DNA of 64,000 nt from contig CAMCVO010000001.1 of assembly GCA_945881945.1 (NCBI GenBank), forward strand, positions 1-64,000, read 5' to 3'. Below the pieces are notes generated by a model that saw only the letters and a program-made list of their open reading frames with translations, was not told the DNA's origin and ran no database searches. This DNA comes from Bifidobacterium breve (lineage in GTDB: Bacteria; Actinomycetota; Actinomycetes; Nanopelagicales; Nanopelagicaceae). Below, in pieces: positions 42,384 through 46,389 of the stretch (within the stretch, counting starts at the first letter, position 1; each line of letters begins with the position of its first letter). The position numbers and the translations under genes are program-made.

Positions 42384-43547
42384 ATGTCGATGAGTTCTGA
42401 TATGCCAGCTTTATATGGCCCGGAGTACCAAGCGTTGCGCGAAAGTGTGAGTGCGCTTGCGCAGAAAAAGATTGCACCGTTTGCTCAAGATGTTGATGAG
42501 AACTCTAGATATCCGCAAGAGGCAGCAGATGCATTGCAATCTGCTGGGCTTGCGGCAGCACATGTGCCAGTTGAGTTTGGTGGCCAAGGAGCTGATGCAT
42601 TAGCTGCGGTAATAATTATTGAAGAGGTGGCAAGAGTTTGTGGCGCTTCATCTTTAATCCCGGCGGTAAACAAATTAGGTTCGATACCTTTAATGATTGC
42701 TGGCAATAATGAGCAGAAGAAAAAGTATTTAACTCAACTAGCTGCTGGTAATGGGTTTTCTTACTGCTTATCTGAGTCAGAGGCTGGATCTGATGCAGCT
42801 GCCATGAAGACTAAGGCAGTAAAAGATGGTGATAGCTGGATTATTTCAGGGAGTAAAAAGTGGATTTCAAATGCTGGGGTATCACAGTTTTACACAGTTC
42901 TAGCATCAACTGACGCAAGTAAAGGTGCCAAAGGAATCTCTGCCTTTATTGTTGAAAAATCAGATGCAGGAGTTTCATTTGGTTCGCATGAGAAAAAGAT
43001 GGGATTTCGAGGATCACCGACTCGTGAGGTCTACTTTGATAATGTAAAAATTAATGATGATCGAAGATTAGGAGAAGTAGGAAGTGGGTTTTCACTTGCT
43101 ATGAAAACTTTAGATCACACCAGAATTACTATTGCCGCACAAGCTTTAGGAATTGCTCAAGGTGCATTTGATGTAGCTAAAAAGTATGCCCATGAACGCC
43201 AACAATTTGGTAAGCCAATATTTGATTTCCAAGCGGTGCAATTTATGTTAGCTGATATGGCGATGCAGATTGAGGCTGCTCGCCAATTAACCTATGCAGC
43301 TGCAGTAAAGAGTGAAAGAGCAGAGAGTGATTTAACCTTCTTCTCAGCGGCCAGTAAATGTTTTGCCACAGATGTGGCTATGAAAGTGACTACTGATGCG
43401 GTTCAGGTTTTAGGTGGGTATGGATATGTAAGTGATTATCCAGTTGAGCGCATGATGCGAGATGCCAAACTAACTCAAATTTATGAGGGCACAAATCAGA
43501 TTCAACGCGTGGTAATGGCTAGAAATTTAGATTCTTTAACTAATTAA
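42384..43547 (+). CDS. acyl-CoA dehydrogenase
   Basis: FAD flavoenzyme of fatty-acid or branched-chain amino-acid oxidation. 387 residues with the N-terminal helical domain, SYCLSESEAGSDAAAMKTKA and WISNAGVSQFY in the beta domain, and DHTRITIAAQALGIAQGAFD, QVLGGYGYVSDYPVERMMRDAK plus the catalytic base E368 in IYEGTNQIQR, the short/medium-chain type position. ATG at 42384 or 42390. Ten bases after the CopD-CtaG stop. It ends in a TTAA shared with the 5-FCL gene on the other strand. No partner CoA-transferase or ETF genes are nearby, so chain length is open. Confidence 0.92.
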   Translation: MSMSSDMPALYGPEYQALRESVSALAQKKIAPFAQDVDENSRYPQEAADALQSAGLAAAHVPVEFGGQGADALAAVIIIEEVARVCGASSLIPAVNKLGSIPLMIAGNNEQKKKYLTQLAAGNGFSYCLSESEAGSDAAAMKTKAVKDGDSWIISGSKKWISNAGVSQFYTVLASTDASKGAKGISAFIVEKSDAGVSFGSHEKKMGFRGSPTREVYFDNVKINDDRRLGEVGSGFSLAMKTLDHTRITIAAQALGIAQGAFDVAKKYAHERQQFGKPIFDFQAVQFMLADMAMQIEAARQLTYAAAVKSERAESDLTFFSAASKCFATDVAMKVTTDAVQVLGGYGYVSDYPVERMMRDAKLTQIYEGTNQIQRVVMARNLDSLTN

Positions 43548-44086
43548 AATCTAACAATAATTTCAGGAGTTGCTGCAGCCTTTACTTTTTGATCATGAGG
43601 TTCAACTGGAAGTGGCTCACTAGTTAATTCACCGCGGTGTAGCAGTGCGATGGTCCAAGCCTTACTTTTTGCCAGCGCCCGATCATAAGAACCACCACCT
43701 TGGCCTAGGCGATTTCCTGCTCTATCAACATGTAAGGCGGGCACGATTATTAGATCAAGGGTCAACTCAGTCTCTGCATCACCAATTGGTTCATAGTTTT
43801 TACCTACTTTTTTAAGATCTGTATTACTTCCGCCCCATTTAACCCAGAGTAGATCATTATCTTTTACAACCTTTGGCAGAAAAACTGTTTTACCAGAAGA
43901 GATTAACTTTTGATTTAGATCACTAGTTTCTGGCTCAAACTCATAGGAGATGTATGAACCAACATTTGTAACATTCTCAAACTCTTTTGCTGAGAGAATA
44001 TGGAGCCAACTATCAGTAATAAATCGATCCGCTCTCTCCTTTCGGTACTGCTTTCGCAGCTGTGACTTATTTTCTTTATTACCCAT
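43544..44086 (-). CDS. 5-formyltetrahydrofolate cyclo-ligase
   Basis: ATP-dependent enzyme turning 5-formyl-THF into 5,10-methenyl-THF. 180 residues with KSQLRKQYRKERADRF near the start, FLPKVVKDNDLLWVKW, and the signature GGGSYDRALAKSK preceded by the segment LIIVPALHVDRAGNRLGQ. It is divergent from glp, as Rv0992c is from the galU-moeA1-rimJ group in mycobacteria. purU at 36485 acts on the same folate pool. Confidence 0.93.
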   Translation of the reverse strand: MGNKENKSQLRKQYRKERADRFITDSWLHILSAKEFENVTNVGSYISYEFEPETSDLNQKLISSGKTVFLPKVVKDNDLLWVKWGGSNTDLKKVGKNYEPIGDAETELTLDLIIVPALHVDRAGNRLGQGGGSYDRALAKSKAWTIALLHRGELTSEPLPVEPHDQKVKAAATPEIIVRF

Positions 44087-44130: not shown

Positions 44131-45042
44131 ATGGATGAAATGGTGACAGTCGGTGCTTTGCAGGAGCAGTTACTCAATTTAAGTAAGCCATTGGCCGCAC
44201 TTGACCTACCACTTTTAGATGCGCACGGGGCGACCTTGGCTAGTGACCTATTAGTGGATGAAAAACCAGTTATAAAGAGTGGTCAGCTAATAGATTCAAC
44301 TCAAATTGCACTTGTAGCCTCACTTGGCCTAGATAGATTGCCATGTCGTCCCCATCCACGAGTGGTGATAATCAGCGCAGGTGATGACTTAGTTGAGCCT
44401 GGAAGTAAATTGGCAGATGATGAAGATGAGTTTGAGAGCAATTCTTGGTTTTTAACCACCTTTGCTCGCGAGGTGGGAGCACATGCATTTCGAGTCCACA
44501 CTATTCCAGAAACAGCTGAGCAGCTTAAGTTAGTAATTGAGGATCAATTAGTGCGGGCTGATTTGATAGTAATTAGTGGTGAATCAAAAGATGAATCATT
44601 TGATTTAATTACCTCAGTTATATCTAATCTTGGCGAGATCAAAATTGTTACACCAAAACTTGTTGAAAGTAGTAAGCATAGTTTTGGGTTAATTGGTCCA
44701 GATAAAACTCCAGTTGTGGTTCTGCCAGGTGACCCAATTGGCAACTTTCTTTCTGCGGAGTTGTTTATCAGACCCATAATCAAGAAGATGTTAACTGGTA
44801 CCAGCACAGAACGGCTAAGCAAGAAAGTGAAATTAACTAAATCAATTACTTCTCCTTCAAGCAAAGCTCAATATATAAGAGGAAATTTGAACTCAGATGG
44901 TCAGGTATCACCGTTGTCAGATCAAGAATCACTCATGACACTGTCTAAAGCAAACTGCCTGATTGCAATTAGTGAGAAGGAGGAAAAAATAAACTCTGGT
45001 GATCTGGTAAATATAATTAAATTAAATATGGATAAACCTTGA
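44131..45042 (+). CDS. glp: gephyrin/MoeA-like protein Glp lacking domain II
   Basis: Homologue of MoeA/gephyrin, in the position of actinobacterial Glp, which in Corynebacterium binds FtsZ and the membrane receptor GlpR to organise division and polar growth. Only 303 residues, against about 400. After the first helical segment (ATLASDLLVDEKP, residues 35-46) the sequence jumps to LVASLGLDRLPCRPHPRVVIISAGDDLVEPG (61-91), so the MDGYA-containing domain II is missing. The GGVSMG motif is SGESKDES (149-156) and the QPGKP motif is degenerate. The LPGDPIGN segment (198-205) and domain IV remain. Molybdotransferase activity seems unlikely; a structural role is inferred. Confidence 0.78.
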   Translation: MDEMVTVGALQEQLLNLSKPLAALDLPLLDAHGATLASDLLVDEKPVIKSGQLIDSTQIALVASLGLDRLPCRPHPRVVIISAGDDLVEPGSKLADDEDEFESNSWFLTTFAREVGAHAFRVHTIPETAEQLKLVIEDQLVRADLIVISGESKDESFDLITSVISNLGEIKIVTPKLVESSKHSFGLIGPDKTPVVVLPGDPIGNFLSAELFIRPIIKKMLTGTSTERLSKKVKLTKSITSPSSKAQYIRGNLNSDGQVSPLSDQESLMTLSKANCLIAISEKEEKINSGDLVNIIKLNMDKP

Positions 45043-45599
45043 AAAAACTAATTGATAATGAAATTACCTTAAAACCAATTCGTTTTAGAGATAAAGCACA
45101 GTGGGATGCAGTTCGCGCAGTTAACCGAGATTGGTTATCACCCTGGGAAGCAACTAGGCCCAAGATAGAGAGTGATTCACCACTTCCTTCTTACTACGCA
45201 ATGGTGATGCAATTAAATAAGGAGATAAGAGCGCTTCGATCTATCTCGCTAGCAATTTGGCTAGATGAAGCTGGCGAACAGGTATTAATCGGACAGATAA
45301 CTTTAGGCGGAATTATTTTTGGCGCGATGCGAGGTGCCCATATTGGCTACTGGGTAGATCAACGATTTGCTAATCGTGGTTACACCACCAGAGCGGTAAA
45401 ACTATTAACTAAGTTTGGATTTGAGAACCTTAAATTGCATCGAATTGAAATAAACCTGCGCCCAGAAAATGAGGCATCAAAGAAAGTTGCAGCAAAAGCT
45501 GGGTATGTATTGGAAGGGGCTAGAAACAACTACCTTCATATTGCAGGGGATTGGCGCAATCACATTACTTTTGTTAAGGAAAATCCAGAGATAAAATAA
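45039..45599 (+). CDS. rimJ: RimJ/RimL-family GNAT N-acetyltransferase
   Basis: Acetyltransferase of the ribosomal-protein N-acetylating family; actual target unknown. 186 residues with the GNAT acetyl-CoA region ANRGYTTRAVKLLTKFGFENLKLHRIEINLRPEN (positions 110-145 approx.) and AAKAGYVLEGARNNYLHIAGDWRNH at the end. TTG start at 45039 overlaps the glp stop. It sits between glp and glpR as in mycobacteria (Rv0995) and corynebacteria; the conserved position hints at acetylation of something in that system, though this is inference. Confidence 0.88.
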   Translation: MKKLIDNEITLKPIRFRDKAQWDAVRAVNRDWLSPWEATRPKIESDSPLPSYYAMVMQLNKEIRALRSISLAIWLDEAGEQVLIGQITLGGIIFGAMRGAHIGYWVDQRFANRGYTTRAVKLLTKFGFENLKLHRIEINLRPENEASKKVAAKAGYVLEGARNNYLHIAGDWRNHITFVKENPEIK

Positions 45600-45666
45600 A
45601 ATAAATCAAGGACATACCTACTCATTTGCCGTTAAATTCAACCCTTAACATTTATTGTTGTGCTTT

Positions 45667-46389
45667 ATGGGTTCAGGTTTTATCTACTTAATCATCATTG
45701 CCATGTGGGCTGCCTACTTCTTACCGCAATGGTTAAGTAAACACGAAGATAACTCTGGAAAAGCAATTGAGAGATATAAAAATGCCATGCAAGTAGTTGC
45801 TGAGAGCAACCCAAACGTAAAGACTGAACCAAGAAATGAAAATAAAAAAAGAGTTTATTTCCAACGCCAACTTATATTCGGTTCATTATTTTCTTTAAGT
45901 TTTATATCTTTAATTTTTGCAGCTGTTGGATTCTTAGATATAACAACAACATTGATACCTATGACAGCTTTATTAATTTACCTAGTTAATGTCCGAAAAC
46001 AGGTGGTGACTTCACAACTTAAAGCCAGACGATTAAAAGCATTAGAGAAAATCACTAATAGTAAGATCCCAACCACGGTAATCCCAGATCCAGTTACAGA
46101 AAAAAGTAGCAAAGATCATTGGATTCCATTTTCAGAGCGTCCGGAAATTACTGGGGTAGTAGTAGTTCCAAAAGATCGAAATGGTTGGCAACCAACAAAA
46201 TTACCAAAACCTGTCTACACAACAGCTGCCAAGGCAGTTCCAAGTAAGCGAATTATTGATCTAACCACAACTGGTCAATGGAGTGCTGAACAAGAGCGAG
46301 TTAAGGCTTTATCAGGTAGAGATGATGACTTCTTTGATCAAGAGATTGCAGCTGATTACTCTGATAAAAATAAGGCAGTCAACCAATAG
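45667..46389 (+). CDS. glpR: Glp receptor-like membrane protein GlpR
   Basis: 240 residues from the ATG at 45667. One N-terminal helix (4-21) with the family signature WAAYFLPQWLSKHED, then a cytoplasmic linker with ERYKNAMQVV, two further helices (69-89 and 92-108) and a 125-residue hydrophilic C-terminal tail. This matches actinobacterial Rv0996/GlpR proteins, the membrane partner of the gephyrin-like Glp. Third gene after glp and rimJ. In-frame TTG codons at 45655 and 45658 are alternative starts; no ribosome-binding site is obvious. It ends exactly at the convergent mannosyltransferase stop. The name rests on context plus the signature. Confidence 0.75.
   Translation: MGSGFIYLIIIAMWAAYFLPQWLSKHEDNSGKAIERYKNAMQVVAESNPNVKTEPRNENKKRVYFQRQLIFGSLFSLSFISLIFAAVGFLDITTTLIPMTALLIYLVNVRKQVVTSQLKARRLKALEKITNSKIPTTVIPDPVTEKSSKDHWIPFSERPEITGVVVVPKDRNGWQPTKLPKPVYTTAAKAVPSKRIIDLTTTGQWSAEQERVKALSGRDDDFFDQEIAADYSDKNKAVNQ

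Follow-up and report, generated by a model that had tools for sequence, protein, structure and literature searches.

Glp is a gephyrin-like protein of the Actinomycetes that derives from MoeA and serves the divisome, and its hallmark is a set of four domains, I to IV. In Corynebacterium glutamicum, domain II comprises residues 46-145 and is inserted in domain I (PMC10522489). The FtsZ-binding loop of Glp, defined in Corynebacteriales, is delimited by M361 and Y369; its deletion in C. glutamicum abolished FtsZ and GlpR binding alike, and FtsZ docks on the protein partly via the main chain in the crystal structure (PMC10522489). Whether Glp is a moonlighting or a repurposed enzyme was left open in 2023, and repurposing was concluded in 2025 from the divergence of its active site.

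The window, the whole 64,000-nucleotide stretch of DNA analysed here, carries a glp gene for a protein of only 303 residues (44131..45042, + strand, ATG start), which was delimited from the list of open reading frames, Pfam, NCBIfam, relatives and a structural model. Pfam matches MoCF_biosynth and MoeA_C in the protein and finds no MoeA_N (PF03453), and the NCBIfam Glp_gephyrin profile NF045515 aligns residues 46-298 with profile positions 145-403 (E 3.6e-65, 220 bits), a score below the cut-off of 475 bits with about 100 profile positions absent. The gap corresponds to domain II of C. glutamicum Glp, as the first-pass annotation had proposed. That annotation had the protein jump from about residue 45 straight to an LGL segment; the loss of domain II stands but the position of the cut does not, since in the alignment to MoeA of E. 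coli and Glp of C. glutamicum it follows residue ~43, and the stretch from residue 44 to ~72, LGL included, forms the latter half of domain I, so that this domain is whole. At the junction itself, VDEK (residues 43-46; 44257..44268, + strand), located by alignment and flanked in the model by DSSP strands 40-42 and 45-48, a tight turn is predicted to join two strands where full-length Glp/MoeA holds ~100 residues of domain II. Further along, the alignment identifies RPHPRV (residues 73-78; 44347..44364, + strand), the Pro-rich hinge that connects domains I and III and is characteristic of the Glp clade. The AlphaFold model (mean pLDDT 87, pTM 0.86) retrieves C. glutamicum Glp structures as best Foldseek matches by E-value (E 3e-27), so that the structure prediction of Glp alone, suggested as a check in the first-pass annotation, points to the Glp fold. 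In trees the short protein lies inside the Glp clade, with the Glps of its family and class and apart from E. coli MoeA and from the second MoeA copies of its own family (support 99-100), and the short Glps of Nanopelagicaceae are monophyletic (100/100). With domain II absent the four-domain hallmark is incomplete, and we class the protein as a Glp variant and not as a standard member: a scaffold of the divisome minus its enzyme domain, for which a division role is what we can best infer.

The neighbourhood of the gene is that of a Glp locus. The order in the window is CtaG/CopD, acyl-CoA dehydrogenase, 5-formyltetrahydrofolate cyclo-ligase (MTHFS; 43544..44086, - strand), glp, a rimJ-like GNAT acetyltransferase gene (45039..45599, + strand), glpR/sepX (45655..46389, + strand), PMT, TP_methylase (rsmI-like) and metG. 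The divergent MTHFS gene is a syntenic marker of the glp locus and, like the rimJ-like gene, which overlaps the glp stop codon in an operon, was assigned by Pfam, NCBIfam and synteny; glpR, encoding the membrane receptor of Glp, was assigned by NCBIfam NF050099 (E 3.1e-23), synteny and alignment. The trio glp-rimJ-glpR is present in every locus of the family with flanks long enough, and the short-Glp genera share the order of the window, without moaC, mogA and, in most, galU. As for galU, many Actinomycetes have it between MTHFS and glp; the window locus lacks it, and two genera, g9 and g12 (L059, L061), keep it. A different arrangement is found in a sister genus, g5 (L054-L056), which has MTHFS (-), galU, a glp for 404-405 amino acids, moaC, mogA, rimJ and glpR; a second sister genus, g37 (L057), has the same order as far as the contig reaches. 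Since the full galU-glp-moaC-mogA-rimJ-glpR order also occurs in six of eight other long-Glp Actinomycete loci checked, it is taken as the ancestral state. Comparison of the loci therefore indicates that the operon once combined molybdenum cofactor (Moco) synthesis with division, and that the short lineage lost exactly moaC, mogA and domain II.

What the ancestral protein did can be judged from these long relatives. The catalytic positions considered were D59, T100, D142, E188, D228, D259, the GGVSxG, GNP and GSH motifs, and MoeA_N with MDGYA. The Glp-locus proteins of g5 and g37 match 13 of the 13 core positions (SAMDGFA, SGGVSQG, MQPGMPQG, TLPGNPVSA, GQGSH), and in one of these genomes (G028, 99% complete), which also carries MoaA, MoaC and two xanthine-dehydrogenase-type enzymes, the Glp-locus protein is the only MoeA_N protein. 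Because an intact Glp at the same locus is the sole MoeA of this Moco-using genome, the ancestral Glp was probably still an enzyme, against the published view that Glp is repurposed and not moonlighting; the G028 protein may be a bifunctional molybdenum insertase and division protein, and we infer that the long Glps of g5 and g37 are both catalytically active and FtsZ-binding. Across the broader sample of the class, the Glp of Moco-positive genomes retains 12-13 of the 13 positions, with one exception (G039), whose Glp groups with that of C. glutamicum. Four genomes without MoaA (G040, G046, G047, G051) keep a Glp that matches 5-8 positions, and a further one in which MoaA was not found (G050) matches all 13, this genome being 72% complete and having molybdoenzymes. 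On these sequences, other lineages that lack Moco retain a Glp whose motifs are eroded.

The short form is not an artefact. Frames of about 300 amino acids, colinear with the whole query, occur in 12 of 13 genera of the family among 60 relatives sampled, the exception being g5. Closed genomes carry the short form (G001, G005, G014, G032, G135), it is present in three single-contig congeners that are 99-100% complete, and a public scan adds the closed Ca. Planktophila versatilis MMS-IA-79 and IMCC19121. Chance and an assembly error or frameshift are therefore ruled out; the first-pass annotation had named relatives with an intact domain II as a sign of such an error, and most genera of the family share the short form. 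A split gene with domain II encoded elsewhere was also considered, and no MoeA_N match was found in the own genome or its congeners. In one congener (G010; L022 1262-2160), glp appears as two overlapping ORFs, a frameshift or sequencing error. Some public MAGs that the glp locus places in Nanopelagicaceae bear the titles Bifidobacterium breve or Streptomyces griseus (L133, L150, L151, L169, L179, L188).

One may argue that a protein which has lost its catalytic motifs and a whole domain, in a genome of 1.1 Mb and with the ORF of one congener in two pieces, is a MoeA relic decaying under relaxed selection as the genome shrinks. The selection data refute this as a general explanation and make it highly improbable here: dN/dS of glp among close relatives is 0.03-0.10, similar to rimJ and glpR, dS being saturated at larger distances; mean column identity is 57% over 27 short forms; and a match to the Glp locus, in a few cases a long form, is present in 196 of 201 family genomes more than 80% complete.

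Loss of the enzyme agrees with the Moco status of the genus. Profile searches found no MoaC among the genus members of the sample, no MoeA_N in the own genome or the sampled genus members, no MoaA or MoCoBD_1 in the own genome or 24 other genus members, and no xanthine-dehydrogenase-type molybdoenzyme in the own genome or complete congeners. A single PF00384 (molybdopterin-fold) match of the own genome was rejected as a molybdoenzyme and identified as NuoG. The own genome is 86% complete, and the argument from absence is carried by closed congeners, which agree. Across the family, about a third of genomes have MoaC, and all 41 genomes with MoeA_N also have MoaC. A second, distant MoeA is present in 58 of the 60 MoaC-positive short-Glp genomes vs 5 of 137 MoaC-negative ones (Fisher p 3e-41, which overstates independence, the genomes being related). 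In the loci read, these second copies lie away from glp and next to moaC and mogA; in the tree, two of them fall with E. coli MoeA and not within the Glp clade. Hence a complete Moco pathway served by the short Glp as only MoeA, which the first-pass annotation had flagged as evidence against its reading, is not what the Moco-making relatives have.

The active site itself has been rewritten. In place of the expected SGGVSxGxYD, the window protein has SGESKDESFD, part of SGESKDESFDLI (residues 149-160; 44575..44610, + strand), the segment in which the comparison of 111 proteins reveals a new conserved motif where the catalytic SGGVSxG loop would be. Alignments place LVESSKHSFGLIGPDKTPVVVLPGDPI (residues 177-203; 44659..44739, + strand) where MQPGxPQG...TLPGNPV is expected, LVESSKHSFG replacing MQPGxPQGFG and LPGDP replacing LPGNP, and the GSH loop is gone. 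In total the window Glp matches 5 of the 13 core positions, with three domain II positions missing: the equivalents of D59, T100 and D142 are absent from the short Glp, and G252, N300 and S371 are replaced or missing. The presence of MoaC in about a third of family genomes might suggest that the short Glp still inserts molybdenum where Moco is made, or makes a reduced cofactor, but these missing residues, the second MoeA of such genomes and the invariable pairing of MoeA_N with MoaC leave this the least credible of the alternatives. Enzyme loss, as claimed in the first-pass annotation, is thus well supported by the sequences: the protein has lost the catalytic domain and residues, and the genome and its complete congeners lack MoaA, MoaC, MoeA_N and the xanthine-dehydrogenase-type enzymes.

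The same annotation held that the catalytic motifs had disappeared. The replacement of GGVSxG and QPGxP is borne out, whereas the idea of a simple loss is not, since 111 distinct short Glps carry a near-invariant motif, SGE-S/R-x-D-E/D-SF, in the old pocket. S156 (111/111), D191 (111), G150 and E151 (109/109 each) are invariant, and S149 (110), D154 (108), F157 and H183 (107 each) are nearly so, as are G186, P194 and P199. To judge from these counts, the old pocket is not decayed; it is rebuilt around a conserved motif. Mean pairwise identity is 0.74 in short vs 0.59 in long Glps over the C-terminal half of domain I and the hinge, 0.61 vs 0.79 in the pocket, and 0.30 vs 0.45 in domain IV, contrasts that describe a shift in pattern and not in rate, the two sets differing in depth. 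This pattern fits a dimer core and hinge that are still important and an old pocket with a new partner.

As a counterpoint to a scaffold role, so strong a motif could point to some new activity or ligand. If the old molybdopterin pocket now served another small ligand or reaction, a nucleotide for example, the short Glp would be an enzyme or sensor, and pocket loops rewritten to a near-invariant sequence in 111 proteins are what one would expect. Nevertheless, no other known family with the motif was matched in Pfam or NCBIfam, the cleft lacks its second half, formed by the GSH loop and the partner chain's domain II, the locus context is that of the divisome pair glp-glpR, and a second family lost domain II with different pocket residues. 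We regard a new ligand as unlikely, if the least unlikely of the alternatives weighed here, and favour a rebuilt partner site on a scaffold.

That second family, f38, likewise a streamlined one, came from the class search. One of its genera (g85, genomes of 1.5-1.8 Mb) has Glps of 307-318 amino acids without domain II (G329, G497, G527, G539; L213-L216). Their short glp sits between galU and rimJ-glpR in an operon without moaC, and its pocket residues differ from those of the Nanopelagicaceae short Glps. Neither MoaC nor MoeA_N was found in G329; G497 and G527 possess MoaC as well as MoeA copies distinct from Glp. In the sister genus g86 (L217), Glp keeps domain II with eroded motifs (CEGYA, GGVAATS) and looks like an intermediate stage of loss. 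The tree groups the f38 short forms with their own long sister and those of Nanopelagicaceae with the long forms of that family (99 and 99); once the domain II columns are removed, the two short groups still stand apart (100/100 each) and have different sisters. A single shared loss for both was rejected, costing 46.7 log-likelihood units in the all-column tree (AU p 0.016). The f38 deletion is thus an independent replication of the loss of domain II, and such a repeat of the cut in another bacterial family suggests that a part in division is enough to retain Glp.

How far the division partners have followed can be read from GlpR and FtsZ. In the window GlpR, the hydrophobic segments align, and both the RAVN-type C-terminus and the tail motif (PTYVxAPKA, RxIDLTxPGxWS) are kept; the tail motif WQPTKLPKPVYTTAAKAVPSKRIIDLTTTGQWS (46186..46284, + strand) is conserved in the alignment across most Actinomycetes sampled. 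Tail motif and RAVN-type C-terminus, both kept in most Actinomycetes sampled, are candidate Glp-binding sites. The FtsZ partner is there too, with a C-terminus that reads DEIDIPDFMR across most of the genus, DEIDVPDFMK in most short-Glp relatives, and DDLDVPDFLK in g5 and many other Actinomycetes. In other Actinobacteria the FtsZ tail serves SepF as well, so that a conserved tail does not point to Glp alone. The change of the FtsZ tail in most short-Glp genera (L119, L123-L131) is possibly tied to the altered Glp hairpin. This domain IV hairpin (residues 247-262; 44869..44916, + strand), aligned with the FtsZ/GlpR-binding loop of C. glutamicum, is shortened, with M361 replaced by N and no Tyr369, the equivalent of which is absent in all 20 short proteins compared. 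M361 is missing from the other Actinomycete Glps compared too, and the M361/Y369 signature may hold for Corynebacteriales only. Given a changed docking loop whose deletion abolishes both bindings in C. glutamicum, the binding mode must have altered or been lost in part.

It could follow that the short Glp keeps only its link to GlpR and the membrane and acts elsewhere than in Z-ring tethering, as unconserved FtsZ-docking residues and hairpin, a domain IV more diverged than any other part and a kept GlpR tail motif would suggest. Weak conservation of domain IV was considered as proof of lost FtsZ binding and is not decisive, long Glps too being most variable there. Against this alternative, the tail of FtsZ is under strict conservation apart from changes specific to lineages (DEIDIPDFMR vs DDLDVPDFLK), main-chain docking tolerates side-chain change, and one loop deletion abolished both bindings in C. 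glutamicum (PMC10522489), so that they are hard to separate. It is doubtful, a little more so than a new ligand, and retention of the division role is the likelier outcome. The pared-down scaffold proposed in the first-pass annotation accordingly holds as regards glpR synteny, purifying selection and the conserved GlpR tail motifs; the part that concerns FtsZ is more conditional, the docking residues being unconserved.

In our view the window gene is a Moco-independent Glp, a MoeA-derived divisome scaffold of Actinomycetes, to which we assign a probability of roughly 0.7. The sequences show the ancestral state to be a full-length Glp with intact molybdenum-insertase residues in a galU-glp-moaC-mogA-rimJ-glpR operon. 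In the lineage of Ca. Nanopelagicus, Ca. Planktophila and their relatives, the operon lost moaC and mogA and domain II was cleanly excised, domains I, III and IV remaining. Domain II, inserted in domain I, would protrude from the MoeA dimer and serve the cleft of the active site, and without it the homodimer core would stay intact and still link FtsZ to GlpR during division. The rewritten acidic/serine pocket motif is probably a binding site for a protein, be it GlpR or some other component of the divisome, and not for molybdopterin. Lineages that use Moco at present have their own MoeA at another place, within a moaC-mogA cluster. A broader account, to which we give somewhat less than even odds, is that Glp was ancestrally molybdenum insertase and divisome scaffold in one chain within a moaC-mogA operon, and that Moco loss, or its regain with a second MoeA, lets the enzyme half erode and has twice led to its being cut out whole, leaving a minimal scaffold with the old pocket rebuilt as a partner site.

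New here are the catalytic-type sister Glp at the same locus, the second loss of domain II, the rebuilt pocket motif and the eroded Glp of Moco-less lineages. The two roles are separated in both directions, by an apparently catalytic Glp that is the sole MoeA of a Moco-using genome and by a Glp whose catalytic domain is deleted where Moco is absent. The minimal divisome part of the MoeA fold becomes directly testable, with a natural construct of 303 residues for structural work. Moreover, a division protein of one of the most abundant groups of freshwater bacteria (Nanopelagicaceae, acI) scores under the curated cut-off for Glp and can readily pass for a molybdenum enzyme.

Among known systems, E. 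coli MoeA and the gephyrin E domain share the fold of three of their four domains with the short Glp, which has no domain II and has GGVSVG, PGKP, GNP and GSH replaced. The neighbour in the window is a recognisable member of the GlpR/SepX family with a conserved tail (PMC8748795; PMC10522489), although its first disordered loop is shorter than the 192 residues of C. glutamicum GlpR. C. glutamicum Glp (PDB 8bve/8bvf; PMC10522489) shares with the short Glp the rimJ/glpR neighbourhood, the clade, the Pro-rich hinge, the fold of domains I, III and IV and an eroded active site; it alone has domain II and a longer FtsZ/GlpR-binding hairpin (M361-L370, Y369), and C. glutamicum has two further MoeA paralogues whereas the short-Glp genus has no other MoeA. 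The full-length Glp/MoeA of the sister Nanopelagicaceae (L054-L057) occupies the same locus and clade with the same flanking genes but, in contrast to the short Glp, has 404-405 residues with domain II and every catalytic position, and stands beside moaC and mogA.
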